Origin: Clostridia bacterium
Lineage (GTDB): Bacteria; Bacillota; Clostridia; Oscillospirales; Acutalibacteraceae
Direction of reading: 5' to 3'
Assembly: GCA_017613735.1 (NCBI GenBank)
Contig: JAGADF010000005.1
Span: forward strand, 1-56,277
Length of the DNA: 56,277 nucleotides
Made by a program: the position numbers and the translations under genes. The notes beneath the pieces are model-generated. The model worked only from the letters and a program-made list of their open reading frames with translations, had not been told where the DNA came from and did no database searches. How positions within the stretch are numbered: the first letter of the stretch is position 1; each line of letters opens with the position of its first letter. This document shows, piece after piece, positions 6,705 to 36,054 of the stretch.

Positions 6705-9700
6705 TTAGAAAAGCAAAAGCTTTCTGTCAAGGAATGCTGCATCGAATGCGTCAATAACGGTATCACCGTTTACATCCGCCTTTGCTTCCTGCTCAGCCGT
6801 CAGCGTGGTATTCCCTGCCGACGCACTGATTAAAAGACCGACATCATTTAAGTCAAAGTAACCGTCGCCGTTAATATCGAACGGCGCGCTTGTCGGGATA
6901 ATTCTGTTACCCGCAATATTACTTTCTGTGGCAAGCGTTGTAGTCGAGTCAAGGTAGAAGTCCTTTGCAAATGTAAGAGTATTATAACTGTAATCGTCCG
7001 CCTCAATATAATCGCCTGCATCTGTCCAGCTGAGCGTAATGTTGACATTATAGGTAGGTCTGTCAGGCGTAAAGCCGTCGCCTGCGCCTATGAGGTTTGC
7101 AAGAACTTTACCGCCTTGGATGTTAATATCACCGTAAGCGATAATATATTTGACCATGCTTGACGGGTCTGCCACACCGGTACCGATACCTGCGCCGTAA
7201 TAGGTTCGGCTTGAATATGTGTATTCGCCGCCCTGAGCGTCAATCTCACCGCCGTATACGGTGACGTCAAACTGCTTGGCGGTTGTACCCGTAGCATTAT
7301 ATCCTGAACCGATACCTGCTGCGCCCGAACCGCCCAGTGCGATAATCTTACCGCTGTTAATTGTGATTGTTCCGCTCTTTCCCTGAATACCGCCGCCTAT
7401 ACCTGCGCCTCCGACGGTGGCTCCGCTGATTGTGGCGTTGCCGCCGTCTGCGTTAACTGTTGCGCGGGCAATTTCAATTACCGAAGCGCTGTGCAACGCA
7501 CTGCCGCCGATGCCTGCCGCGCCGTTGTATCCGTGTGCGGTAATCTTACCGCCGAGGATGTGGATTTCACCCGTATCACTGTTTCCGGAGCCGCCTATAC
7601 CCGCAAAGTTGCTTGTTCCCGAAGCGGGAGGAACGCTGCGGAACGCACCCGTGTTTTCTTTCTGACCGTAGATATAAACAGCTCCCGAAGCGCCGACTGC
7701 GATATTCTGCGCGCGAAGCGTAACTCCGTCGCAGAGAATAATATGCGATGTGCCGTTAACGTTGATAGCTCGGGTTATTGTTGTGTCAGCATTTACTACA
7801 TACCAACCGCCGTCGTTCAGATAAACTGTACTTGCATCCGTCAGTACGGTGTAGTTTGTGCAAGCCATTCTGTTACCGAAGCCGTCATAGTATTCTACGA
7901 AATCAGTCGCAGGAACAATTGTAGTGTAGCCGTTGAGCGGAATGTCAACAAGATTTGTTGTTCCGCTGTAGAAGAAATCGTTTTCAAGAGTTATGTCTGC
8001 CTTATAAATCGTAGCATAATAACTGTCGGATACATTTGTCCAGTTAAGCGTTACGCTGTAGCCGTCGCCGTTTGCTGCAGCCATATCTGCGCCGACAAAG
8101 CCGTTTGCCGTTATATTACCGCCGTTGAATGTAACCGAACCGCTGTTACCGCCGCCGATAGCCGCCGCATTAACGCCCGATTCAACCGTGATAACACCGC
8201 CGTTGATATTGATTGTACCTGCATCCTCGCCGTTTGAAACGCCGATACCCGCTGTATTGTTATCGGGAAGCGTAACCTCAAGCGCACCCGTTCTGCCCGA
8301 CTGAGCGTAAATATTAAGCGTTGCGCCTTCGGGTACTTCAATACCCTTGACTGCAGTAAGCGTTGCGCCGTCGCAGATAATGAGGTTAACCGTGCCGCTG
8401 ACTGATATTCTTGAATTAACCGTTGTATCGTCTGTTACGACGTACCACGTATTTGAAAGAGCAGTCGTACTGCCGTCAACAGTGTAATATGCAGTACAGG
8501 TCTGAGCGTCGCCGTTTTCGTCAACATAGCCGACAGCGGGAATTGCCTGGAAATCTGCAATAATATCTGTATCGCTTCTGAAAGTATATGAGAAATCAAA
8601 CGGGAAACCGTCAGCAGTCCAGCCGTTGAAAATGAAGCCGAACTTTTCGGGATCTGCGAACGGAGTTGCTGTCATGCCGTTTTTGACCGTCTGCGCAGGG
8701 GCAAGCTCGGTTACTCCGTCGCTGTCAAGGAAACGAACTGTCAGGTCAACATCGGGAATGATTGTTGCACCGGCAATGTTTGAAGTTGTAGCCGAAGTCA
8801 TTGTTCCGTCAAGAATGAAATCCTTTGCGAATGTAACAACGCCCGTGTAGCCGTCCGAATAATATGTATCTTCGGTTGAAGTCCAGTTAAGTGTAATAAT
8901 ACAATCCTGATTCGAATAAGTCGGCGAGTCACCGATTCCCGTACCGTTTGTACCCGCAGCCGCAAATACAGTACCGCCGTTAATTGTAACTGCCTTCATC
9001 GGTACGCCGTCTCTTGCGCCTATAGCCGCCGAGTTTGTGCCGCCCTGAGCTGAAACATAACCGCCGTTAATGACTATCGGCTGAGCGGATGTATCCTTTG
9101 CCCTGCCGCCGATACCGGCGTGATAACCGCTTGAGCTTGCGTTAACATAACCGCCGTTTATTGTAATTGAATCAAAGACTGCCGAGTAACCTGCGCCTAT
9201 TGCGCTTCCGCTTGAAGATGTGGCTGTAACGTTGCCGCCGTTAATGACGATTACCGTATTGTCGCCTGAATTCTGGCTGTTGTAAGCCGAACCGACAGCC
9301 GCTGAATATGTGCCCGCGACAGCGTTAACCTCGCCGCCGTTAATTGTGATATATCCGCCGCCGTGGTTGGAACCGCCGCCGATAGCTGCCGAATAGGTAG
9401 CGCCCTTTGCATTAATAACACCGCCGTTAATTGTGATATTGCCGGGAACAGCGTATGACACTCCGCCGATAGCCGCATTGTTGGCGTCAGGGCTCTTACA
9501 GTTGAGTTCACCCGTACCGCCTGACTGAGCGTAAATATTCAGAGTATTGGAACCTGTACATGTTATTCCCTTGGGAACATCAAATACACAGCCGTCACTG
9601 AGTATGATATTGACTGTTCCGCTTATAACCAATCTTTTTGCAAGACTGATTTCGCCTGAAACAACATACCAGCCGCTTGAAAGCGTAACAGCTTCACCGG

Positions 9701-12224
9701 TGGTTTCAATATAATCGTAGCTGCCCTGCGTCTTAACCTGTGAAGTGCCGTTTGCATCAATGTAGGGAACGTCGCCGCCCTCAACCCAGTGTGCGCGCAG
9801 AACGGTATTTGCCGTAATGGGAGTTGAGAAATCAAATGCAACGCCGTTAAGACGCCATTCAACAAATCTATATCCCGTCTTTATGGGATTGGACGGTTGC
9901 GCAACCGTCTGACCGTCAACTATTTTTACCTGTGAATAAATCGAGGTTGAACCGGTTTCATCGTAAAAATCAACCGTGAAAACGTCATCGGTGCACGGAA
10001 CAATTCTGTTGCCGTCAATATTGTCAAGCGTTGCAACGGTGTTCGTGCCCTGAATGACGAAATTATTTTGTAAGTTAATTGTATCCGCATTATAGTTGGT
10101 TGCAAAAATTGAGCCGTCCGGAGAATTCCAGTCGAGATTTACAACCGCCTTGCTTGCGTCAGGAGCACCGATACCGTAATACGTGGTAGTAACATGAGTG
10201 CTTGAATTCGTGTATGAATAAGCGTTTGCGGAAACAATACCTCCGCTGATATTAACGGTCGAAACTCCGCTTCTTGAAGCATTGGAACCGCCGATAGCAG
10301 CCGAATATGCGCCGCCTGTTGCAATAACGGTTCCGCCGGTGATATCAACTCTTGTGCCGATGCCCATATAACCGTCGCCTATTGCCGGCGCGCTGTATCC
10401 CTTTGCGGTAACCTTGCCGCCGTTAAGGGTGATATAGCCGCCTGCCGAGTATCGGCCGCCGCCGATACCTGCGGCATAGTTTGAAGCTGTTGCCGTTATC
10501 TCACCGCCGTAGATAAATATATTGCCCGACTTTGCCGTTGTATTCGCGTCAGACTTTGCGTCGGAACCGATTGCCGCATTACCGTCACCGGGATATGAGC
10601 AGTTAAGCTTGCCCGAGTTATTTGTCTGTCCGAAAATGGTCAGATAATTACCCTGCTCAACACGAATACCGCCGTTATTGAGGTTAAGCGTATATCCGTC
10701 GCGAAGAATAATTGAGACATCTCCCTGGATTGTGATTCTTGTGTTATATGTCGCGCCTGTGCCGACTACGTAATAACCGGTTGTAAGCGTTGTGGGAAGA
10801 TTCGTTGAACAAATCTCGGTGTATTCATTTCCGGCAAGAGTTTGAGTAGCACCGTTTGTGCCGATATAAGAAACCGAATAGTGCTGGTCCCATTTTGCAA
10901 GGACATCAATGTCGCTTGATACTGCCGTATTGAAATTATATGCTGAGCCGTTAAGCTCCCAGCGCACAAAGGTATAACCCGTTTTTGTCGGATTTTCGGG
11001 TTTGACGGGAATACCGCCCGGGATAACCTTAATCGGCGAAGCGATAGGCGTTACTCCGTCGTCGTCATAAAGATTGACATAGTTATAAGGTCCGTTATAG
11101 GCGTGAATCGTATTGCCGCCGATATTATCGGGCGTTGCGAATACGGGATTGCTGCCGACCTGGAAATCATTGAGAATTGAAATATTTGATGAAGAGTAGG
11201 ACTCGGCGTATATGGTGTCGGTCGTACTTGTCCAGTCAAGAACGGTTGACGAACCGCCGATGGAACCGTTAGCAGTAACGTTACCGCCATTAATTTCTAC
11301 AACGCCGATTGAACCTTTGTACTGCATTCCGGTATAAACGGAATAAGTGGCGTATTTACCGATAGCTTCACCCTTTGTGCCGTTCGCATCGGCAACAGTC
11401 GTTGCAGTAACAGTACCGCCGTTGATAGTGATATCGCCGCAGTTTGTAAGATAACCGCAACCGATAGCCGCAGCACTGCCGCCGTATGTCGTAGTTGCAG
11501 TAACGGTGCCGCCGTTGATCACGGTGGTACCCCAGTCACCGCCTGTTGCAGTTCCGGTCTTACCCGCGCCGCCTATACCTGCGCCGCCTCTGCCGCCTGT
11601 TGCGGTAACTGTACCGCCGTTAATAATAAGCGTTCCGTTTGCATTTGCATTGGCGTCATTGTGACTGCCGCCTATAGCCGCGCTGTCCTCACCGCCTGTT
11701 GCGGTAACTGTACCGCCGTTTATTGTGATAGTACCGCTGCCCGATATGCCTGTATGCTGATATTCACCATTTGCAACAACCGTACCGCTGTTAATTGCCA
11801 GCTGACCGTTAACCTTAATGGAGTCTGAACGGTTTGACTGATATACCTGATAAGCGGATATTGCTTTAAGCGTACCGGTACCTGCCGACTGACCGTAGAT
11901 ATTAAGCGTTGCGCCTGAATTGATAACAAATCTGTCTCTCGATTCAAGGGTAAACCCGTCGCAGAGAATCAAATCCGCGTTACCCGAAACATAAATCGCA
12001 CCAAAAACCGAAATGTCCGAGTTAACAACATATACGCCGTCATTCAACGTGATGTAACTGTTGCCGCCCGTAAAAACCGTGTAATCGGTAACGGAATGCG
12101 ACAAACCGTTTTCATCGACGTAACTGACCGCGTCGAGCGCAACAACATTGACCGAAAAGATGTTGCACAAAAACAGCAAGCATATAGCAAATGCCATTAC
12201 CTTTCTCATTTTGAAATTTTTCAT
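6705..12224 (-). CDS. Giant secreted five-module beta-helix protein with InlB-type repeats and C-terminal dockerin
   Basis: A 1839-residue predicted extracellular protein. A signal peptide (MKNFKMRK, then a hydrophobic core to about residue 29) is followed by five homologous modules starting near residues 33, 448, 818, 1231 and 1445. Each opens with Y-hydrophobic-D/G-x-x-G, then a strand ending YVV, an xLxDGxxL stretch, a zIYxQ-x-x-x-GxL line, and Gly-rich INGGxVxAxGG coils that read as a right-handed beta-helix. Each closes with LxWTxxxD...xDFxLxG...N-I-x-G-x-xI. InlB/Listeria-Bacteroides-like repeats (xPxKxGYxFxxWxxNG) follow modules 1-3 only. The last 60 residues are a type I dockerin with two Asp/Asn-rich calcium loops (DINGDGYFDLND and DVNGDTVIDAFD). 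The coils resemble the carbohydrate-binding Cthe_2159-type fold, but binding is inference. No catalytic motif is recognised. Confidence 0.88.
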   Translation of the reverse strand: MKNFKMRKVMAFAICLLFLCNIFSVNVVALDAVSYVDENGLSHSVTDYTVFTGGNSYITLNDGVYVVNSDISVFGAIYVSGNADLILCDGFTLESRDRFVINSGATLNIYGQSAGTGTLKAISAYQVYQSNRSDSIKVNGQLAINSGTVVANGEYQHTGISGSGTITINGGTVTATGGEDSAAIGGSHNDANANANGTLIINGGTVTATGGRGGAGIGGAGKTGTATGGDWGTTVINGGTVTATTTYGGSAAAIGCGYLTNCGDITINGGTVTATTVADANGTKGEAIGKYATYSVYTGMQYKGSIGVVEINGGNVTANGSIGGSSTVLDWTSTTDTIYAESYSSSNISILNDFQVGSNPVFATPDNIGGNTIHAYNGPYNYVNLYDDDGVTPIASPIKVIPGGIPVKPENPTKTGYTFVRWELNGSAYNFNTAVSSDIDVLAKWDQHYSVSYIGTNGATQTLAGNEYTEICSTNLPTTLTTGYYVVGTGATYNTRITIQGDVSIILRDGYTLNLNNGGIRVEQGNYLTIFGQTNNSGKLNCSYPGDGNAAIGSDAKSDANTTAKSGNIFIYGGEITATASNYAAGIGGGRYSAGGYITLNGGKVTAKGYSAPAIGDGYMGIGTRVDITGGTVIATGGAYSAAIGGSNASRSGVSTVNISGGIVSANAYSYTNSSTHVTTTYYGIGAPDASKAVVNLDWNSPDGSIFATNYNADTINLQNNFVIQGTNTVATLDNIDGNRIVPCTDDVFTVDFYDETGSTSIYSQVKIVDGQTVAQPSNPIKTGYRFVEWRLNGVAFDFSTPITANTVLRAHWVEGGDVPYIDANGTSQVKTQGSYDYIETTGEAVTLSSGWYVVSGEISLAKRLVISGTVNIILSDGCVFDVPKGITCTGSNTLNIYAQSGGTGELNCKSPDANNAAIGGVSYAVPGNITINGGVINAKGATYSAAIGGGSNHGGGYITINGGEVNAVAGTYSAAVGSAYNSQNSGDNTVIVINGGNVTATSSSGSAIGAGYSAVFDSITINGGYVNASSSGYHAGIGGRAKDTSAQPIVINGGYVSAQGGTNSAAIGARDGVPMKAVTINGGTVFAAAGTNGTGIGDSPTYSNQDCIITLNWTSTEDTYYSDGYTGVVTFAKDFILDGTMTSATTSNIAGATIIPDVDLTVRFLDSDGVTELAPAQTVKNGMTATPFADPEKFGFIFNGWTADGFPFDFSYTFRSDTDIIADFQAIPAVGYVDENGDAQTCTAYYTVDGSTTALSNTWYVVTDDTTVNSRISVSGTVNLIICDGATLTAVKGIEVPEGATLNIYAQSGRTGALEVTLPDNNTAGIGVSNGEDAGTININGGVITVESGVNAAAIGGGNSGSVTFNGGNITANGFVGADMAAANGDGYSVTLNWTNVSDSYYATIYKADITLENDFFYSGTTNLVDIPLNGYTTIVPATDFVEYYDGFGNRMACTNYTVLTDASTVYLNDGGWYVVNADTTITRAINVNGTSHIILCDGVTLRAQNIAVGASGAVYIYGQKENTGAFRSVPPASGTSNFAGIGGSGNSDTGEIHILGGKITAHGYNGAAGIGGSALHSASVIEIARATVNADGGNATISGATVGGAGIGGGIQGKSGTITINSGKIIALGGSGAAGIGSGYNATGTTAKQFDVTVYGGEIDAQGGEYTYSSRTYYGAGIGTGVADPSSMVKYIIAYGDINIQGGKVLANLIGAGDGFTPDRPTYNVNITLSWTDAGDYIEADDYSYNTLTFAKDFYLDSTTTLATESNIAGNRIIPTSAPFDINGDGYFDLNDVGLLISASAGNTTLTAEQEAKADVNGDTVIDAFDAAFLDRKLLLF
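11593..11720 (-). repeat. Internal 29-bp exact repeat in the giant gene
   Basis: A 29-base sequence occurs identically at 11593-11621 and 11692-11720, 99 bases (33 codons) apart, encoding the GGTVTATGG coil. Similar diverged copies lie near 11402 and 11497. This shows coil duplication inside module 1. Confidence 0.85.
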
Positions 12225-17332: not shown

Positions 17333-20300
17333 TCAGCCGTACAGATAAAAAAGTCTGTCAATCTCCGCCGCGTCGAAGGCGTCAATAACGCCGTCGCCGT
17401 TCATATCGCCGATTTCAATTTTTTCTGCCGAAAGAGCGCTTTTGTTAACCGCCGAGTTAATAATCAGACTTATATCCGCAACGTCAACGGTTCCGTCCAG
17501 CGTAACGTCGCCCTTCTGGCGGATTAAAATGTCAAACGTCGCCGACGAGCCGTTAATTGTGAGCGTGCTCGTAAAGGTTACGTGATTATTCTTAAACGCC
17601 TTAAGAGTATAAGTTCCGTTTTCGATATTTCCGATTAAAAAGCCTGTGCTGTTGCCGCTGACGGCTGTTTCGTATGCGGGCGTTTCGTTTCCGTCGGCAA
17701 AAAGCTGAATCGTAATCGGGTCGCTGCCCGAATAGCCGCTTGTAACCGCGCCGCTGAGAACGGGGCCGTAATAAAGCTGACAGAGTACGTATGAATTCTG
17801 AGTCGCGGTAAAGGTAAAGGTATCGGAGGCTTCGCCCGTGCCCGTTACCTCGCCCGAGGAATTGACAATCACCCAGCCTTTAACGGTTTTGTCGCCCGTA
17901 TATTCAACCGTAACCGTGCTTCCGCTTACAACCGCGGAATTGTCGTCAAGAACCGACGGGCCCGAATAAACCGTTATTTCGGAATTGCAACTGCCCGACG
18001 GAATATAAAGAACGCCGTTTTTACCCTCAAAGCTGTTTTTATTCACGCAGCCTCCCGAATAAAGAGCGGGCATTGAGTCAAACTCATTTGTAAAGCCGTT
18101 TATTGCCGTTCCGGTTTCGGACATATAAAGTGAATAAACCTCGGACGGTTTAAGCGCCCTCGTAAAGCAGTAAACGTTATCGAGAGAAAGCGTACAGGTT
18201 CCCCAGTAAGCCGTATACCCGCCGAAATACATACTCGTTTCTCCGCTTGTCAGGAAACTGAGCAGTCCCCCGTTCGCCTGATAGCCCGACGCGCCCGTAA
18301 CCGTAACCGATTCTGAAAGTTCGCCGTTAATAAAAATATCGAAATGATAATCGTCAATAATATCAACCGTCACGAACTGCCAGACCTTATTCGTTATATC
18401 GCCGTTCGCGGTTGTATAGTCAAAATACTGCCCCGCAGACGAAAGGTTGGGGTCGCTTCCGCCGTCGCCGTTATTGAAACGGATGTAACCGTCGGTGCCT
18501 ATGCAGAAATACTTTTTCGCGTCAAGGTCTCCCTTTGCAAAGGTTACGGACTCAAGGTCGCCGTAGTAATTGCCGTTAATTCTCTGCCAGAAACTGACTG
18601 TCAGTCCCTTTGAGGTGTCGGCATTGTAAAACGGATTCGTTCCCGTGGCGATATAATTCGCATACTGACCGCCGTTCTGGGTATAAGGGAAGGAAGCCGT
18701 ACCCGTTCTTCCGTCGTTATCGTTCAAATCAAGAGTAACCGTTTTACCGTTGTCCTGCCAGCCGGTAACCGCCGTTCCGCCAAGAGACGAGGTAAAAGTA
18801 TTCAGATATGCATAACTCGGCGTATTTGTAATCTCGTCAACGGTTTTCGCGTAATTCAGGAACTGAACCGAGTCAAGGTAACAGTCGGCAGTTCCCGCCA
18901 TAGTCGGGTAAATGCTGAAAGACGCACCGTAATAAAGCTTTATGTCTGAACTTGACAGGAATGAGAAAATTCCGTCATTACCGCTGAATCCGTAAGGATA
19001 GCCCGAAGCGCAGATATCGCTCAGGACGTATTCTTTTGCCGGCGCGCCGTTGACGTAATAGCGTAAAATATGCTTGCCGTTAACGGCTTTGTCGATTGTA
19101 ATGTCAATGTCAACCCACTGTGACGAGGTTGTATTTACCTCAGTCGAGGAATTAATGTCAAAATAACAGCCGTTCCATCCGCCTGCTCCGCCGTTGCCGT
19201 CGTTAAAGAGGATTGTTCCGTTCGCCATAATAATAAAGTAACGGTTATCGGTATTCCTGCCCGTTGAGAAATTAATAAGCGACGTGTTCCAGCCCGAATC
19301 GGTACTGCAGTATTTTGAAAAACTGATTGTTACACCGTGCGACAGGTCGGCGTTCGCAAACGGATTTTCGCTTTCCCTAACGGCGCTTCCGACCTTTGCG
19401 TTAATATTGCACATGGTGCAGTCGGTTACGACATAGGGAATCTGCCTGTCGTTGGCATAGGTCTGAGAATAAATACCGTCCTCGCCGTACATTGTAAGAG
19501 CGGGCGTGTTCGTAAAGGCGTTATCGGCAATGCTAAGAACGCTTGACGACGTGTAAAACGCGGTCATTCCCGTGCAATCCTTAAATGCGTAAACGCCTAT
19601 TGAAGAAACGGAATTCGAGTGAATATCAAGGTTTTCAAGGCTTGAGCACTTTGCGAAAGCGCCCTCGCCTATGGAAGTGATACCCGACGGAAGAACAACC
19701 TCGGTGACGTGGTCAAAGCCGTAAAAGGCATAGTCGCCTATTGAGGTAATGCCGTCGCCTACAACTATTTTGGTAATTATATCGCTGTTGTACTGACCGT
19801 CAAAAAGAGCGTTTTTAAGCTGGTCGCCCCACGGAGCGGTCGAGCCCATACCGTTAACGCCGTTAGCGGAGGTATAGGCGTAATTGTTCATATTTCCGCT
19901 GCCCGTAAGAGTAAGAACTCCCGTAAGTCTGTTGAGCGTATAGGAAATATTGCCGTCCGTGCCCGAAACGAGAGTCGAAACGCCCTCGTTATTGAGAATA
20001 ATGTATCTCGCAAGCTCCTCGGTCGCAAAGTCCATAGCGAAAATCCCCGATGGCTTGGTTTTATTGTATGTAAATGTCGCGTAGCCTGAATTTACCTTAC
20101 CCGCAAGATTTTCGGGATTGGGTACTGTCGAATCCGAAACAGTCGACGAGAAATTGATATAGTATTCGCCTCTGTAATGTCCTAGAGAAAGCATTTCCTG
20201 CGTGGCAAGCTTTTTTGAGTCGGTATTCCACTTGTAATGGTCCTGAACGTGGAACGTGCCGACACCCGTGTTTGTATTGGTTACATTCGCGTAAACAGGC

Positions 20301-21034
20301 GTTGTATAGGTTCCGTCCGAATAGTCGCCCCACTTGATTTTCTGACCGGATTCCTCCTCGCTTGCAGTTGAGCCCGAGGTTGCGATAATCTGGTCAAAAC
20401 GGTTCATAAGAACGCATTTACCCCTGACCTGGTCAAGAGTGGGCACGCTTTTGCCGAGGTACCAGTAATCGTGATAATTATAGTCCTCGCCGTAAAAGTA
20501 TTTGCCCTGACCGTAGCCGTGAATATATTCGTAAATTGCGGATGTAAAGGTCGCCGCGCCCGCGTCGCCGTCATCCTCTTTTATTGAAACGAGAACGGTT
20601 TCGCTCGGGTGAGCGTCAAGCCAGGTATAGATATGCTGAAAAACATAATCGAGCCAGTAATAATCGTTGCCGTCCCAGCAGTCCGCCGAGCCGTGAACGG
20701 TTTTTACGGAATGGTTTGAATCGCACTCGCACCTGATATCAAGAAAACGTATGCCTGCATTAAGCTGTTCGGGAATATTCATACTTTGACATTTTGCGGC
20801 AGAGGACACAAGCCAGTCGTTGTAAAACTTTCTTGCGCAGCTGTCGTGAGTTCCGGGAATGGTAATCTCGGTAAGTTTTGTCTCGCCCCTTATTGCCTTC
20901 ATCCATTCGTACGACGGCACGTCGGAAAGAGTCACCGCCGTTTCATACACGGATGCAGCTCCGATACCTACAGGCGGCACCAGAGAAAGCATCATAAAAA
21001 CAGTAAGAATTAAAGATAGGGTTTTCTTCAACAT
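17333..21034 (-). CDS. Secreted PI-PLC X-domain protein with LRR, two LamG-like domains and dockerin
   Basis: A 1233-residue predicted extracellular protein. Signal peptide (1-27); PI-PLC X-like domain (about 40-345) with both family histidines, ITIPGTHDS (His63) and TVHGS (His114), plus GIRFLDIR; BspA-type leucine-rich repeats (about 425-510, SIGDYAF and SIGEGAF); two LamG/concanavalin-like domains (about 560-735 and 805-970); an Ig-like stretch; a carboxypeptidase-regulatory-like beta domain (about 1093-1170); and a C-terminal dockerin with loops DVTLDGTVDVAD and DMNGDGVIDAFD. It should cleave phosphatidylinositol or glycosyl-PI type lipids by acid-base chemistry. LamG and dockerin suggest attachment to glycans and to a cohesin scaffold. 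The dockerin end closely matches that of the giant protein at 6705. No cohesin gene lies in the window. Confidence 0.87.
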   Translation of the reverse strand: MLKKTLSLILTVFMMLSLVPPVGIGAASVYETAVTLSDVPSYEWMKAIRGETKLTEITIPGTHDSCARKFYNDWLVSSAAKCQSMNIPEQLNAGIRFLDIRCECDSNHSVKTVHGSADCWDGNDYYWLDYVFQHIYTWLDAHPSETVLVSIKEDDGDAGAATFTSAIYEYIHGYGQGKYFYGEDYNYHDYWYLGKSVPTLDQVRGKCVLMNRFDQIIATSGSTASEEESGQKIKWGDYSDGTYTTPVYANVTNTNTGVGTFHVQDHYKWNTDSKKLATQEMLSLGHYRGEYYINFSSTVSDSTVPNPENLAGKVNSGYATFTYNKTKPSGIFAMDFATEELARYIILNNEGVSTLVSGTDGNISYTLNRLTGVLTLTGSGNMNNYAYTSANGVNGMGSTAPWGDQLKNALFDGQYNSDIITKIVVGDGITSIGDYAFYGFDHVTEVVLPSGITSIGEGAFAKCSSLENLDIHSNSVSSIGVYAFKDCTGMTAFYTSSSVLSIADNAFTNTPALTMYGEDGIYSQTYANDRQIPYVVTDCTMCNINAKVGSAVRESENPFANADLSHGVTISFSKYCSTDSGWNTSLINFSTGRNTDNRYFIIMANGTILFNDGNGGAGGWNGCYFDINSSTEVNTTSSQWVDIDITIDKAVNGKHILRYYVNGAPAKEYVLSDICASGYPYGFSGNDGIFSFLSSSDIKLYYGASFSIYPTMAGTADCYLDSVQFLNYAKTVDEITNTPSYAYLNTFTSSLGGTAVTGWQDNGKTVTLDLNDNDGRTGTASFPYTQNGGQYANYIATGTNPFYNADTSKGLTVSFWQRINGNYYGDLESVTFAKGDLDAKKYFCIGTDGYIRFNNGDGGSDPNLSSAGQYFDYTTANGDITNKVWQFVTVDIIDDYHFDIFINGELSESVTVTGASGYQANGGLLSFLTSGETSMYFGGYTAYWGTCTLSLDNVYCFTRALKPSEVYSLYMSETGTAINGFTNEFDSMPALYSGGCVNKNSFEGKNGVLYIPSGSCNSEITVYSGPSVLDDNSAVVSGSTVTVEYTGDKTVKGWVIVNSSGEVTGTGEASDTFTFTATQNSYVLCQLYYGPVLSGAVTSGYSGSDPITIQLFADGNETPAYETAVSGNSTGFLIGNIENGTYTLKAFKNNHVTFTSTLTINGSSATFDILIRQKGDVTLDGTVDVADISLIINSAVNKSALSAEKIEIGDMNGDGVIDAFDAAEIDRLFYLYG

Positions 21035-29370: not shown

Positions 29371-30807
29371 ATGGCAGAACAGAAAAAAATGGTTGACGAA
29401 ATCACCTCTATGGAGGAGGATTTCGCGAAATGGTACACCGACGTAGTTAAGAAGGCGGAATTAATCGGCTATACAAGCGTTAAAGGCTGTATGGCAATAC
29501 GTCCCTACGGCTACGCGATATGGGAAAATATGGTTTCCATTCTCGACAGAGAGTTCAAAAAGACGGGGCACAAAAACGTCTGTATGCCCATGTTTATTCC
29601 CGAAAGTCTTCTGAATAAGGAAAAGGACCACGTCGAAGGCTTCGCTCCCGAAGTCGCGTGGGTTACTCACGGCGGAAACGAGCCTCTTGAAGAAAGAATG
29701 TGCGTACGTCCCACAAGTGAAACGCTTTTCTGCGACTACTACGCGAATACAATTCAGTCTTACAGGGATTTGCCCCAGCTTCTCAATCAGTGGGTAAGCG
29801 TAGTAAGATGGGAAAAGACAACAAGACCTTTCCTTCGTTCAAGGGAATTTCTCTGGCAGGAAGGTCATACGATTCACGAAACAGCCGAGGAAGCAATTGC
29901 GGAAACCGAGCAGATGCTTAATATCTATGCCGACTTCTTTGAAAAGAGCCTTGCAATCCCCGTTGTAAAAGGCTTAAAGACCGATAAAGAAAAGTTCGCG
30001 GGAGCCGAAAAGACCTATACAATTGAGGCTCTTATGCACGACGGCAAGGCGCTCCAGAGCGGCACCTCGCACTATTTCGGCGACGGCTTCGCAAGAGCAT
30101 TCAATATTCAGTTCTTAGGCAGGGACAATAAACTCCATTACCCGCATCAGACCTCGTGGGGAACCACTACGAGAATGATAGGCGCGGTCATTATGGCTCA
30201 CGGCGACAATAACGGACTTGTTCTTCCGCCCGCTATCGCGCCCATTCAGGTTATAGTTCTGCCCATAGCCCAGCATAAAGAGGGCGTACTCGAAAAGGCG
30301 AATGAGATTAAAGAAAGAATTTCCGCATTCTGCCGCGCGGACATTGACGACAGCGATAACAGTCCCGGCTGGAAATTCGCCCAGTACGAGATGAAGGGCG
30401 TTCCGCTTCGTCTTGAAATAGGTCCCAAGGACATTGAAAACAATCAGTGCGTACTTGTCAGAAGAGATACGAGAGAAAAGTATTTCGTTTCTCTTGACGA
30501 GCTTGAAACAAAGATTCCCGAGCTTCTTAAAGCCGTTCACGACGGGCTTTACAATGCCTGCCTTGAAAGGCGCGAAAAGATGACTTATGTCGCTAAAACG
30601 CTTGACGAATTAAAGGATATCGCCGAAAACAAGCCCGGCTTTATTAAGGCTATGTGGTGCGGCGACGAAGAATGCGAAAATGCCCTTAAGGAACAGGCGG
30701 GCGTTACCTCAAGATGTATTCCGTTTGAGGAAGAATGTCTTGACGAAAACTGCGTCGTCTGCGGTAAAAAGGCGAAGCATATGCTCTACTGGGGCAAGGC
30801 TTATTAA
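29371..30807 (+). CDS. proS: Prolyl-tRNA synthetase (short, archaeal/eukaryotic-like type)
   Basis: Charges tRNA-Pro with proline. The 478-residue length and the lack of the bacterial editing insertion mark the ProS type 3 subgroup. Class II motifs are seen: a motif 1-like region near GYAIWENM, motif 2 in [22 protein letters not shown], and the proline/ATP site near [14 protein letters not shown]. The C-terminal domain contains CGDEEC and CVVCGKK, consistent with the zinc-binding end of this type. It follows acpP by 18 bases and ends in a strong terminator. A tRNA-Pro gene lies 7 kb upstream. No T-box leader is visible before it. Confidence 0.95.
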
Positions 30808-30814
30808 AAAAGTT

Positions 30815-30855
30815 CACCTGAGCCGATTTCGGTTAAATCGGTTCAGGTGTTTTTT
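30815..30855 (+). terminator. Terminator after proS, abutting the GH28 ribosome binding site
   Basis: A 15-bp stem (30815-30829 with 30835-30849, one G-T pair), CGGTT loop and six T (30850-30855). The GAGG of the next gene begins at 30856, so this hairpin is also positioned to influence GH28 expression. Confidence 0.88.
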
Positions 30856-30867
30856 GAGGTAAAGAAA

Positions 30868-32172
30868 ATGCTTTATTATGTTGAAGATTTCGGAGCTTTA
30901 GGCAACGGCATAACCGACGACGGCGAAGCAATACAGAAAGCCATTGACGCGTGTTTCGAAAACGGCGGCGGCAGCGTGGTGCTGTCCTCGGGCAAACCGT
31001 ATTACAGCCATTCGGTTACTCTTAAAAGCAACGTTGACCTGCATTTTGAAAAGAATGCAGTCTTAAAGGCGAGCGCCGATATTGACTCATACATCCGCCC
31101 GTGCGAAATGATTAACAATCCCGAAACGGCGCTTATAGGCAATCCCGTTACGGGGAAGCCGTCCTTTGTTTTCATATACGGCTTTGAAGCGGACAACTGC
31201 TCGGTTACCGGCGAGGGCACAATAGACCTCGGCGGCGACGCCTTTGTCGAAAGAAAGAGTCCTTATTACGTTACGGGCAATTTTTACCCGAGACCGACGG
31301 GCATTTATATCGAAAACAGTAAGCATATCACCTTTAAAGACATTACGCTTACAAACGCGCCTTTCTGGACTCTTCATCCCGCAGGCTGCGACGACGTTCT
31401 TATTTCGAATATTAGAATTCTTAATCCCCTTGACAGGGCGAATTCCGACGGCATTGACCCCGACCATTCGTCGAATGTAAGAATTACGGGCTGTCATATT
31501 GAGTGCGCGGACGATTGCATCTGTTTAAAGACCACAAACGGCAACCGCGAATACGGGGCGACAGAGAACGTTATTATTTCGGACTGCACCCTTATTTCGA
31601 CTTCCGCCGCTTTGAAAATCGGCACCGAGGGCGTCGGCGATTTTAAAAACATTGACGTTCACGACTGCGTTATTTCACGCTCGAACAGGGGTATTTCGAT
31701 TCAGATTCGCGACGGCGGAAACGTTGAAAACGTAAGCTTTTCAAATATCAGTATCGAAACAAGACGTTTCTGCGAGGACTGGTGGGGAACTGCCGAGCCG
31801 ATTGCAATAACCTGCTTTGACAGAGACGAAAACACCTCGGCGGGCAAAATAAGTAACATAAGGTTCTTTAATATAAACTGCAAGGGCGAAAACGGAATTC
31901 TTGTTCACGCGACAGAAAAGAACAGAATTGAAAACCTGCTTTTTGAAAACGTGAACGTTACTCTTTCAAAAAGTTCAAAATGGCCCTGCGGCTTATATGA
32001 CTTAAGGCCGTGTCTTGAATACGGGGTTATAAACGAAAAGAATTCACCCGTATATATGCGGTATGCCGATAACGTCACCTTCAGAAACTGTGTGTTTAGT
32101 TTTGATAAAATGAGCGAAAAATACGGCGAAATCAAAAACATTGAAAACTGTAAAATTGTAGTTTTTGAATAA
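30868..32172 (+). CDS. Glycoside hydrolase family 28 (polygalacturonase-like)
   Basis: A 434-residue right-handed beta-helix enzyme of the pectinase family, expected to hydrolyse galacturonan-type or related oligosaccharides. It lacks a signal peptide, so it probably acts on imported oligomers. Catalytic Asp residues are in RANSDGIDPD (Asp about 194) and ADDCICLK (Asp about 215 and 216). The usual GHG is not evident (ALKIGTEGVG there), and RIK is replaced by IQIRDGG, so the exact substrate may differ from homogalacturonan. The ATG at 30868 follows GAGG with an 8-base spacing. No promoter is visible between the preceding terminator and the start. Confidence 0.87.
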   Translation: MLYYVEDFGALGNGITDDGEAIQKAIDACFENGGGSVVLSSGKPYYSHSVTLKSNVDLHFEKNAVLKASADIDSYIRPCEMINNPETALIGNPVTGKPSFVFIYGFEADNCSVTGEGTIDLGGDAFVERKSPYYVTGNFYPRPTGIYIENSKHITFKDITLTNAPFWTLHPAGCDDVLISNIRILNPLDRANSDGIDPDHSSNVRITGCHIECADDCICLKTTNGNREYGATENVIISDCTLISTSAALKIGTEGVGDFKNIDVHDCVISRSNRGISIQIRDGGNVENVSFSNISIETRRFCEDWWGTAEPIAITCFDRDENTSAGKISNIRFFNINCKGENGILVHATEKNRIENLLFENVNVTLSKSSKWPCGLYDLRPCLEYGVINEKNSPVYMRYADNVTFRNCVFSFDKMSEKYGEIKNIENCKIVVFE

Positions 32173-32218: not shown

Positions 32219-32674
32219 TTATCTTTCCTTATAAAAATACGAATCTTCGAATTCTTTAAAATCCTTATAATCCTTTTCCCATAGCGCCCACTGATAGTTT
32301 TCTTTATAAAAATCCCCGTCGCGCACCCAGATATATCTGTGGCCGTCTTTGTCTTTATAAAGCGCATAGATTAGTCTGTCGCGGAAAGCCTGGTCAAATC
32401 TGCTTTCGCCCTCGTGCCTTGCGCCGCCGAGCCATTTCATTTCAACGGCGGTTAAATCTTCGGGAACCTCGTCAACGGCGTAAAAGTAACTGCCGTCGTA
32501 TGTAACGGACGAATAATCCTCGCTTATAAGCACGGGATGATTTTTTTCGACGTTTATTATCTTAACCGCAAACGCGATAAGCACGCCGACAAGAGTTACA
32601 AGAGTGAAGCCGAAAACTGCGTATATCAGCCGCTTTTCAAACGAGCTTTTTTTAGCTCTTTTTTCTTTTTTCAT
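32219..32674 (-). CDS. Small single-pass membrane protein, unknown function
   Basis: A 151-residue protein: a Lys-rich cytosolic start (1-15), one transmembrane segment (about 16-40), then an extracytoplasmic domain rich in aromatic and charged residues, with WLGGARHEGESRF and RYIWVRDGDFY. No family is recognised. Its ATG overlaps the TGA of the aminotransferase gene (ATGA), so it is the last member of the murT-gatD-aminotransferase operon and its product may work at the cell surface with them. Confidence 0.7.
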   Translation of the reverse strand: MKKEKRAKKSSFEKRLIYAVFGFTLVTLVGVLIAFAVKIINVEKNHPVLISEDYSSVTYDGSYFYAVDEVPEDLTAVEMKWLGGARHEGESRFDQAFRDRLIYALYKDKDGHRYIWVRDGDFYKENYQWALWEKDYKDFKEFEDSYFYKER

Positions 32675-33934: not shown

Positions 33935-34648
33935 TTATCCTAAATATTCCTTATTCGGATTTTCAAATTCCTTCAGCCTTTTTTCGTATGCTGTTCTTAT
34001 ATCGTTTTCGCACGGAAGAGCCGCGTTTTCAATACCCAGAAGCGAAAGAAGATATTTCGTGAAATCGGGATTGAGAATAAGCAGGGGCCCTAAAAGATAG
34101 GTCGCAAAGAAATTATTTCTTCTTATGCCCTCAAACCTGCTGCCCGGATGAAGCCCGTCGCCGCGAATATTCTCAAAAAGTCCTTCGTCTTCGCTTTCGC
34201 CGTAGGAATGTGAAAACTGCGCCTTGAAGCCGACAATTTTCATTTCGTCAAACTTTCCGAAATAAAGGGAATTATATCTTTTCATCATTTTTCTTTTGGC
34301 GTACGTCCCGAAAATGCCGAGAGCCTTTATTTTTTCGCCCTCGTCGGTTTCAATGTAATCGCCGAATATTTCAAGCGCGTTGCCGATAATGAGAAAGACC
34401 TTGCCCGCTTCAATAAGCTCGATAATTCTTTCTTTATAGGGTGAAAGCTTTTCGATAACGATTTCCTGACCTCTTTCGGTCATAGGTCCCATATAGATAA
34501 AATCGACGTCGTTCTTTGCAAAATACGGCTCGTCATTGACCTTGGTTTTGACAACCGTCGCGTCGGGAAGGCATTGTTCAATGTATTTCATTTCAACCGC
34601 TTCGCCGTAAAGGTTGGCAAGCGCGGGATACAAGAATTCAACAGTCAT
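33935..34648 (-). CDS. gatD: GatD-like subunit lacking the glutaminase catalytic residues
   Basis: A 237-residue homologue of GatD, the class I glutamine amidotransferase subunit that supplies ammonia to MurT for amidating the D-Glu of lipid II. Collinearity with GatD is clear through DFIYMGP, LIIGNALEIFG, ALGIFGTYA and ATYLLGPLLILNP. The nucleophile position (Cys in ICGGYQFLG of the staphylococcal protein, as I recall it) is Gly89, and the His of TYLHGP is Leu186. The known glutaminase chemistry therefore cannot operate. It may be structural or bind another donor. It overlaps murT by 1 base (TAATG) and precedes the aminotransferase by 13 bases. Confidence 0.85.
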   Translation of the reverse strand: MTVEFLYPALANLYGEAVEMKYIEQCLPDATVVKTKVNDEPYFAKNDVDFIYMGPMTERGQEIVIEKLSPYKERIIELIEAGKVFLIIGNALEIFGDYIETDEGEKIKALGIFGTYAKRKMMKRYNSLYFGKFDEMKIVGFKAQFSHSYGESEDEGLFENIRGDGLHPGSRFEGIRRNNFFATYLLGPLLILNPDFTKYLLSLLGIENAALPCENDIRTAYEKRLKEFENPNKEYLG

Positions 34649-36033
34649 TACGCGTTCCCTCCCGTTCTTTCTCTTAAACGCCTCTTGATTTCGTCGCGTA
34701 CCGCAAGAGCCTCGTCATTTCTGTAAAGCTCATGCAAAACATAAATCTTGTCCGCGTCCCACCTGACGGCGTCGGGCGTATCGGACTCCTTATCTATACA
34801 AATAATTTTGCTTTCGTCAACGCCCGCGATTTCAAGGCGGACCTTGTAGTCGATGGCGCGGACGCCGCCGATAATAATTCTCTTAATGCTTTCGTCGCCT
34901 AAAAATTCAAAATCCGCGTCGTAAATCCAGCATATATTTTCGCTCGAAGCGGCGTTGTCGTGGACGTCGTCGAGAAGAAGTATAACCTCTTTCGTTCCCT
35001 CGGCTCTTTTTACGTAATCGAATACGCATGAGCAGGCAATAGGATTCTGACCTTTCGCCATATTCGAGATAACCTCGATATCGCCGATTTTTTCTTCGGA
35101 AAAACGCGTTTCAACTATTTTCTGATTTGAAAGAATGTCTGAAAGCTTTTTAGCCTCAATGCCGAACTGCTCAAGCAAGGCGACTACGGCGGTAAGGTTA
35201 TAGGCGTTGAAAATACTGTCGTTAATGAGCTTGAACTGCGTGCTTTCAAGTCCCCTTGTCATTGTAAGCGTAAGGTTTTCAAAATCAGCCTTCGCAAGAT
35301 AATCGGGCTTGGGCGAAGAGAACGAACAGTTCGGGCAGTGCGCCCTGCCTATGTGATGATAACGGACAAAATCGTATTTCAGTTCGCTGTTGCAGACGGG
35401 ACAAAGCCTCATATCGTTAACAATGTTAATCGATTCGGGCAGGTCCGTCTCCATTCTTTCAATGCCGAAATACACTCTTTCGTTTCCGGGGGCGATTCTC
35501 GAAGAAACAAGGTCGTCCGCGTTAAGAACGAGTTTTGTCGTTTCGGGAACATATTTTGATATTATATCGAGTATATATTCCGAGTGAGCGTTTCTTCTTA
35601 TGGAATCCCTGAAAAGATTTGTGCACAGAAGAAACGTCGGCTTAACGTAAGGGTAAATGCGCACCGAGCTTCTTTCATCAATTTCAAAAACGGCAATCTC
35701 CTTTTTCGCCTTGCCGAAAAGAGTGCTGCCCGAAATCAGCGAGCTCGCAACGCCCGCGTTGATATTCGAGCCGAATCTGTTATTGAGAACGTCGTAGCCC
35801 AGGTCGGTCAGCGCGTCGATAATAAGGTTACAGCAGGTCGTTTTACCGTTGGTTCCCGTAACGCCGATAATGGTTTCGGGTTTATCGATTCTGCCTAAAA
35901 AATCGGGGCAGAGAGTAATTGCAAGCTTACCTGGAAAATAGCTCGCGTTCATTTTCAGTATTCTTTGGGTAATCAGCGCGATTTTCGCAAGAAAAAGCGC
36001 AAATAAAAATCTCGGTGTCTTTTTCAATTTCAC
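34648..36033 (-). CDS. murT: MurT-type lipid II amidating ligase subunit
   Basis: An approximately 461-residue Mur-ligase-family protein. The ATP P-loop GVTGTNGKTT lies at about 57-66. A MurT-specific zinc ribbon has CPVC at 211-214 and CPNC at 233-236. The C-terminal MurT domain keeps WIYDADFE, which carries acidic residues equivalent to the interface region used with GatD. In characterised systems MurT activates the alpha-carboxyl of D-Glu in lipid II and forms D-isoglutamine with ammonia from GatD. Here GatD appears glutaminase-dead, so the donor may differ. The start is uncertain: the ATG at 36045 has no ribosome site, while the GTG at 36033 follows AGAGGA closely. A promoter and paired direct repeats lie upstream. 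Confidence 0.88.
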   Translation of the reverse strand: MKLKKTPRFLFALFLAKIALITQRILKMNASYFPGKLAITLCPDFLGRIDKPETIIGVTGTNGKTTCCNLIIDALTDLGYDVLNNRFGSNINAGVASSLISGSTLFGKAKKEIAVFEIDERSSVRIYPYVKPTFLLCTNLFRDSIRRNAHSEYILDIISKYVPETTKLVLNADDLVSSRIAPGNERVYFGIERMETDLPESINIVNDMRLCPVCNSELKYDFVRYHHIGRAHCPNCSFSSPKPDYLAKADFENLTLTMTRGLESTQFKLINDSIFNAYNLTAVVALLEQFGIEAKKLSDILSNQKIVETRFSEEKIGDIEVISNMAKGQNPIACSCVFDYVKRAEGTKEVILLLDDVHDNAASSENICWIYDADFEFLGDESIKRIIIGGVRAIDYKVRLEIAGVDESKIICIDKESDTPDAVRWDADKIYVLHELYRNDEALAVRDEIKRRLRERTGGNA

Positions 36034-36054
36034 TGTTCCTCTCATTTAAAAATA

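Follow-up and report, generated by a model that had tools for sequence, protein, structure and literature searches.

What can a glutamine-dependent ligase do once its glutaminase subunit has lost its catalytic residues? The question is raised by a gene pair in a 56,277-nucleotide stretch of the genome of a Clostridia bacterium (contig JAGADF010000005.1 of assembly GCA_017613735.1, positions 1 to 56,277; here called the window), whose products are homologs of MurT and GatD, the ligase and glutaminase subunits of the lipid II isoglutaminyl synthase of Staphylococcus aureus and Streptococcus pneumoniae. From alignments and trees we propose, at a probability of about 0.6, that the pair belongs to an old and maintained sister subfamily of this synthase, in which GatD would serve as a non-catalytic scaffold. 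Statements taken from the literature refer throughout to the available excerpts of the papers cited.

Loss of the glutaminase triad

The window GatD was aligned with four solved GatD chains (9sq9_C, 6fqb_E, 5n9m_A and 6gs2_A). Gly89, in the motif IIGNALE, lies under the nucleophilic cysteine of ICGGYQ, which with the offset of 5 in the S. aureus chain is Cys94, and Leu186, in TYLLGP, lies under the catalytic histidine of HGP (S. aureus His189). Both substitutions had been named in an earlier reading of this DNA by a model (the original prediction), and both are confirmed. The third member of the triad is supplied in S. aureus by MurT, as Asp349 (PMC6113224); the window MurT has Asn370 here, next to a retained WIYDADFE. 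The original prediction was correct that MurT keeps this region, its P-loop and its zinc cysteines, and had missed Asn370. All three residues of the shared triad are therefore missing from the pair. In S. aureus, GatD C94S abolishes activity, and MurT D349N in vitro abolishes it according to a figure legend or severely reduces it according to the text (PMC6113224).

Two further losses in GatD had also gone unnoticed: the oxyanion-side glycine, with P55 in its place, and the Glu/His pair, now K142/Q144. Together with the missing Gly-Gly-Tyr-Gln after the nucleophile position and the DNAAD motif of MurT, which reads DNAAS, these set the pair apart from the canonical synthase. An acidic residue at GatD position 16 (Glu in the window) is kept, as is Arg124, which equates with S. 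aureus Arg128 by inference from a gapped alignment.

Both proteins are clearly homologous to the subunits whose structures were solved from staphylococci and streptococci, and lie far under the equivalog cut-offs. MurT scores 180 bits against S. aureus MurT (7q8e_A), and 189.8 and 202.6 bits with the NCBIfam MurT equivalog profiles (cut-off 800). GatD scores 58.4 bits against 9sq9_C, and 73.9 and 55.3 bits with the equivalogs NF045636 (cut-off 400) and NF052463 (cut-off 450); its match to the CobB/CobQ-like Pfam family GATase_3 is above the gathering cut-off of 27. The window genome has one MurT_C match. Both frames are open and share one base. The original prediction had ended the MurT gene at 36033; the first ATG lies 12 bases beyond this, at 36045.

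Against the nearest relative (L031), dN/dS was 0.098/1.10 for GatD, 0.089/1.18 for MurT and 0.045/1.01 for the neighbouring ectB-type gene; since dS is near saturation, the ratios for the pair (about 0.08-0.09) are approximate. Judged by these values, the pair is maintained under purifying selection and is not decaying.

One clade and its distribution

In total, 144 distinct Clostridia MurT rows were aligned, taken from samples at genus, order and phylum level and from a named genome collection. GatD carries the cysteine in 50 of them and lacks it in 84, and for 10 no adjacent GatD frame was found. The 50 cysteine-bearing, canonical rows have the histidine in 49 cases and a gap in one, whereas the nucleophile position of the 84 others holds Gly (79), Ser (4) or Ala (1). 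Seventy-nine of these 84 form one clade (the dead clade, for glutaminase-dead), in which neither the cysteine nor the histidine is kept in any row. The double loss in the window is therefore no isolated case and no product of chance. Because the window GatD and MurT_C served as queries, the ratio of 79 to 50 is no unbiased frequency.

A MurT tree built by a quick method, with the columns of the KNP loop and the DNAAD motif removed and the short-MurT row L053 left out, separates 78 clade rows from all others by a branch with a Shimodaira-Hasegawa-like approximate likelihood ratio support of 99. In a more careful tree of 65 rows, from which the interface-loop columns were also removed, the 38 sampled members group together, with support of 99/96 and in every one of 200 bootstrap trees. 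The five remaining cysteine-less rows (L191, L193-195 and L197) fall within the canonical side. Since the trees need at least four state changes, the cysteine was lost more than once; the large dead clade is itself, on these trees, a single loss event. As L193, L194 and L195 (genomes G319, G397 and G452), L191 (G372) and L197 (G548) show, the nucleophile was lost independently at least three more times; the catalytic histidine is retained in L191 and L193-195. Four rows (L129, L128, L192 and L188) are divergent members of the dead clade with an incomplete loop signature. Canonical-type MurT without an adjoining GatD frame was seen in L062, L145, L149, L189, L190, L196, L198, L200, L205 and L178; some of these loci are short, and L062 has a GatD further off.

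Within the dead clade, the replacement motif T/S-G-N-A-x-E of GatD is conserved (Thr 0.87, Gly 0.96, Asn 0.82 and Glu 0.90), an acidic residue persists at position 16 (Asp or Glu in 77/79), and Arg124 is present in 74/79. The catalytic-histidine position varies among Thr, Ile, Leu, Val, Met and Gln.

In the order sample, MurT_C was found in 66 of 247 genomes. There is a single match in each, so that each carries one type or the other. By their residues 47 are of the dead type, which is the commoner form in this sample, and 19 are canonical: 16 with an adjacent Cys/His GatD and three in which no GatD frame adjoins the canonical-type MurT, one of which (G089) has a cysteine-bearing GatD about 3 kb away. 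In the phylum sample MurT_C was found in 123 of 348 genomes. Residues were read there for the 30 best places, for 20 more of mostly low score (two in one genome) and for those already fetched, the rest being judged by score; the dead-clade members among those read are the window, G072 of the same order, G508 and G571 of the same class, and the more distant G433. Within the genus, 13 genomes have another dead type and two the window type. Exceptions to the rule of one type per genome were met outside the order sample: one locus (L040:2458-7706) carries a tandem of two dead pairs from different subclades, with an ATP-grasp ligase gene after them, and both pair types occur in G013, an assembly with 9% contamination. 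A 2018 structure paper, as excerpted, describes murTgatD as widespread in Clostridiales.

The original prediction had argued that such a pair must use free ammonia or another amine, or have another substrate. This part of it is supported, and gains from Asn370, the loop remodelling described below, the purifying selection and the precedent of an S. aureus mutant; the impression of an isolated oddity does not hold, with 47 of 66 genomes of the dead type and nearly all of the cases collected in one old clade.

The ligase and the genes around it

The window MurT keeps its ATP-site and acceptor residues (P-loop K68, the acidic D123/E124, and N94), and each of the four zinc cysteines is present in 79/79 dead-clade rows. 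Two loops are rewritten. The loop facing GatD usually reads RDQLDR[YF]GE in canonical rows and mostly RDxxxRN[GA]H in the dead clade. By offset from the S. pneumoniae numbering, equivalents of Asp139 and Glu143 occur in 50/50 canonical rows, whereas that of Asp139 is left in about 1% of dead-clade rows; Asn stands at the Tyr141 place in 75/79, and His at the Glu143 place in 69/79 and in none of the 50 canonical rows. Residues 135-143 of MurT lie at the GatD interface and could form an ammonia channel, and other Mur ligases have in the corresponding loop a magnesium-binding histidine, which MurT lacks (PMC6085368). The dead-clade histidine occupies a different alignment column from that of MurE, and we therefore do not claim the same function for it. 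The second loop, called KNP, sits close to the ribose of ATP; it has six residues in 77/79 dead-clade rows, five in 2/79 and four in 50/50 canonical rows. A profile comparison (hhalign) meant to place the amino-acid loop of MurE on the DNAAD of MurT ended before the C-terminal domain.

From 36045 down to 32219, four close-set genes on the minus strand form a putative operon (Table 1). The third encodes an EctB-type aminotransferase, which scores 574.5 bits with NF006733 (cut-off 438), just misses the cut-off of the ectoine EctB family TIGR02407 (543.1 against 552.2 bits), and matches the solved diaminobutyrate transaminase 9s1q_A at 390.7 bits with the SKS lysine region aligned. This gene, which the original prediction did not mention, is the best clue to the amine. 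The last gene product has no Pfam or NCBIfam-type family match above cut-off; it recurs in L031 with 60% identity across 141 residues.

Table 1. Coordinates of the gene pair, its diagnostic residues and the remaining genes of the putative operon
Feature	Position	Strand	Basis or remark
MurT-type Mur ligase, putative glutaminase-dead subfamily, 465 amino acids	34648-36045	-	MurT_C 91.1 bits, Mur_ligase_M 27.2 bits
P-loop GTNGKT, MurT residues 64-69	35839-35856	-	residue alignment
Interface loop RDSIRRNAH, MurT residues 146-154	35584-35610	-	by offset, equivalent to S. pneumoniae 135-143
Zinc-ribbon insertion with C215, C218, C237 and C240	35326-35403	-	residue alignment
KNP loop AKGQNP with two inserted residues, MurT residues 330-335	35041-35058	-	residue alignment
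MurT Asn370 codon, third triad position (S. aureus MurT Asp349)	34936-34938	-	MurT alignment
GatD-like class I glutaminase homolog without catalytic Cys and His, 237 amino acids	33935-34648	-	GATase_3 36.7 bits
Gly89 codon, nucleophile position (S. aureus Cys94)	34382-34384	-	GatD alignment
Leu186 codon, catalytic-His position (S. aureus His189)	34091-34093	-	GatD alignment
EctB-type L-2,4-diaminobutyrate:2-oxoglutarate aminotransferase, 416 amino acids	32671-33921	-	directly downstream of the GatD-like gene
151-amino-acid protein, last gene of the putative operon	32219-32674	-	possible membrane anchor, read by eye

An ectB-type gene adjoins the dead gatD on its downstream side in the window, in L064/L031 (one genome), L032, L034 and L042. 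A gene of PF14397, the sugar-transfer associated ATP-grasp family, lies directly downstream of the dead pair in L038, L040 and L041. In L039 it is downstream on the opposite strand, in L187 it is upstream of the pair, and in L042 it comes after ectB. Among 104 pair-bearing loci of at least 5 kb searched by tblastn, neither gene stood beside the pair in any of the 22 canonical loci. In some high-GC loci, for example L224 and L227, adjacency was taken from match coordinates, and the tblastn search served as the second check of the absence beside canonical pairs. The two genes adjoin each other in G508, G058, G266, G149 and G160; in G058 and G266 they form a two-gene unit (L221:3037-5407 and L226:243-2716). 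At single loci, the dead pair is followed by a racemase gene (L116) or an asparagine-synthase-type gene (L188). An ectB-type gene directly precedes a penicillin-binding protein transpeptidase gene (PF00905) in G215 (L228:6360-8980), which may connect diaminobutyrate with wall cross-linking.

Across 80 genomes (49 of the dead type, 19 canonical and 12 without MurT_C), EctB was above cut-off in 10/49, 0/19 and 2/12, respectively. Strong PF14397 matches (over 90 bits) were present in 27/49, 1/19 and 4/12; the dead and canonical types differ with p 0.0001, a value that, like the other p values here, overstates the significance since the genomes are related and not independent. With G072 and G295, whose matches are weaker and above cut-off, the dead-type count becomes 29/49. 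Among 39 genomes of the genus, some of them incomplete, EctB was found in two, G000 and G033, which are exactly those with the window pair type, and in 0/13 of those with the other dead type.

A class III aminotransferase beside the canonical-type MurT of L200, which had initially clustered with EctB, was not counted as EctB (22% identity, Pfam-level assignment). Ectoine was not adopted as the fate of diaminobutyrate: ectoine synthase had no match in the 12 EctB genomes, where no positive control matched either. Conversion to 1,3-diaminopropane by a group II decarboxylase was also set aside, the matches being short and weak in 6/12 genomes and above cut-off in one.

Elsewhere in the window, a GH28 polygalacturonase-like gene (30847-32172, plus strand) separates the end of the operon from a gene for a 478-amino-acid protein (29371-30807) read by eye as prolyl-tRNA synthetase. 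Proteins of 1839 and 1233 amino acids (6705-12224 and 17333-21034, both minus strand) each finish with a type I dockerin domain; beta-helix and Flg_new repeats occur in one of them and leucine-rich repeats in the other. These features suggest a cellulosome-type surface system. An Rfam scan of the window gave a single tRNA and no other RNA element. When ten genus members were compared in search of an empty operon site, only the HAD gene among 13 window genes was found in the stretches examined, too little to judge by.

Proposed function and alternatives

The scaffold role has a laboratory precedent. With MurT, S. aureus GatD C94G keeps NH3-dependent activity at pH 8.5 and loses the use of glutamine, and neither MurT nor GatD is active alone (PMC3266927). 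A GatD devoid of its cysteine can therefore stay an obligatory scaffold. The window pair has Gly at the same place, and independence of glutamine would be expected of it; unlike the mutant, the state of the dead clade is natural and old and is accompanied by changes in MurT. We propose that MurT would still activate a carboxylate as an acyl phosphate, and that an amine not derived from glutamine would attack it; the carboxylate is most likely that on the alpha-carbon of D-Glu2 of a muropeptide precursor. We hold this to be probable. MurT has been rewritten at the former ammonia entrance, and in the reading that we prefer it would be a Mur-type ligase that takes the amine directly. In the window and the EctB-linked relatives, the amine could be L-2,4-diaminobutyrate made by the product of the next gene, or a compound derived from it, a tentative suggestion that we consider somewhat less likely to be right than wrong. 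Its attachment would give an amino-acid substituent or a cross-link branch on D-Glu in place of a plain amide, and other subclades would use other amines. The bolder generalization, that MurT proteins with a dead GatD are amino-acid and not ammonia ligases for the D-Glu2 alpha-carboxyl, with the EctB-linked branch attaching diaminobutyrate, seems to us unlikely in this full form. The chemistry itself is known from other lineages: the type B peptidoglycan of Clavibacter has a D-diaminobutyrate bridge on D-Glu (PMC9603630), and Negativicutes carry diamines on the D-Glu alpha-carboxylate (PMC10628300). In their available excerpts, neither paper names an enzyme for the attachment.

Several observations weigh against this explanation, and against diaminobutyrate in particular. 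EctB is absent from 39/49 dead-pair genomes tested, and diaminobutyrate cannot be the general amine for that reason. Its enrichment in dead-pair genomes is not significant (10/49 against 2/31, p 0.11), nor is its co-occurrence with PF14397 by genome (7/12 against 25/68, p 0.21); the stronger figure for the window subclade (7/14 against 5/66, p 0.0005) comes from a grouping picked after the tree was seen. There is no ATPgrasp_ST match in the window genome or G033. In G058 and G266 the two-gene unit occurs without a MurT_C match and may therefore work without MurT. All five independent cysteine-less rows lack the KNP insertion, so that loss of the cysteine alone demands no new amine. In L191 and L197, though not in L193-195, the interface loop has stayed close to the canonical form, with DQLDRYG followed by Asp or Ser. 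The MurE of the window genome carries a DNPR motif, which we take as a sign of diaminopimelate at stem position 3; this position is probably diaminopimelate, unlike the Clavibacter wall, and for this reason a type B wall was not adopted as a settled explanation. The argument from the interface loop is weakened by the minor effects on activity of Ala at S. pneumoniae MurT Asp139 or Glu143 (PMC6085368).

A plainer idea is that D-isoglutamine is still made, from free ammonia, with GatD as a structural subunit only. The independent losses just described, the persistence of the position 16 acid and Arg124 and the mildness of the alanine substitutions are all consistent with it, and ammonia is plentiful in rumen and gut. 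The C94G complex can use NH3 or NH4Cl to amidate lipid II at pH 8.5 and needs GatD structurally, although the S. aureus complex used neither at pH 7.5 (PMC3266927). The idea gives the EctB and ATP-grasp links no role, and the dead-clade MurT has changed at its GatD-facing and KNP loops in ways that glutaminase loss alone does not require; we rate it as unlikely. Improbable, in our estimate, is activation of a carboxylate outside peptidoglycan D-Glu, whether in a wall polymer of another kind or in a metabolite of peptide nature, diaminobutyrate being a building block. The scores under the equivalog cut-offs, the loss of DNAAD and the family name of PF14397 point that way; the retention of the acceptor-side N94, D123 and E124, the single-locus transpeptidase, racemase and AsnB-type neighbours, which point to the wall, and the one MurT_C match in each of the 66 order genomes, as if the types had replaced each other, argue against it. 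The conservation of the GatD replacement motif could instead mean a pocket with new residues (T/S-G-N-A-x-E and Arg124) for other chemistry or ligand sensing, which we think very improbable, since the oxyanion-side Gly is lost, the histidine position is variable and the motif may be conserved for structural reasons. Gene decay or misalignment, finally, could be invoked for G005 and G017, whose GatD matches each contain one stop inside the aligned part, but the original prediction rightly argued against decay: with open frames overlapping by one base, dN/dS of about 0.09 and the same state in 79 clade rows, the probability of this explanation is minute.

What the dead clade may mean

A glutaminase-dead GatD subfamily was not found described in the literature searched, the scope of which left out preprints and many subscription papers, and the excerpted text of a 2025 archaeal study with a MurT/GatD tree does not mention a dead GatD. 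The scaffold subfamily proposed here would be an example from nature of a glutamine amidotransferase whose glutaminase has been turned into a scaffold. MurT/GatD is a studied antibacterial target, and its annotation is easily transferred to gut anaerobes; the label isoglutaminyl synthase would be wrong for a large clade if the glutaminase is lost there. Because the glutaminase chemistry is lost and the pair is nevertheless kept intact, the sequences suggest that in many gut Clostridia it now links a different amine to the wall. The D-Glu position matters for cross-linking and for the innate-immune recognition of muropeptides, and the walls of the clade may carry an unexpected amine there. The dead clade is a testable candidate for ligases of amines to D-Glu, and, if the proposal is true, would supply candidate enzymes for decorating or cross-linking peptidoglycan via D-Glu that are spread through the gut Clostridia.

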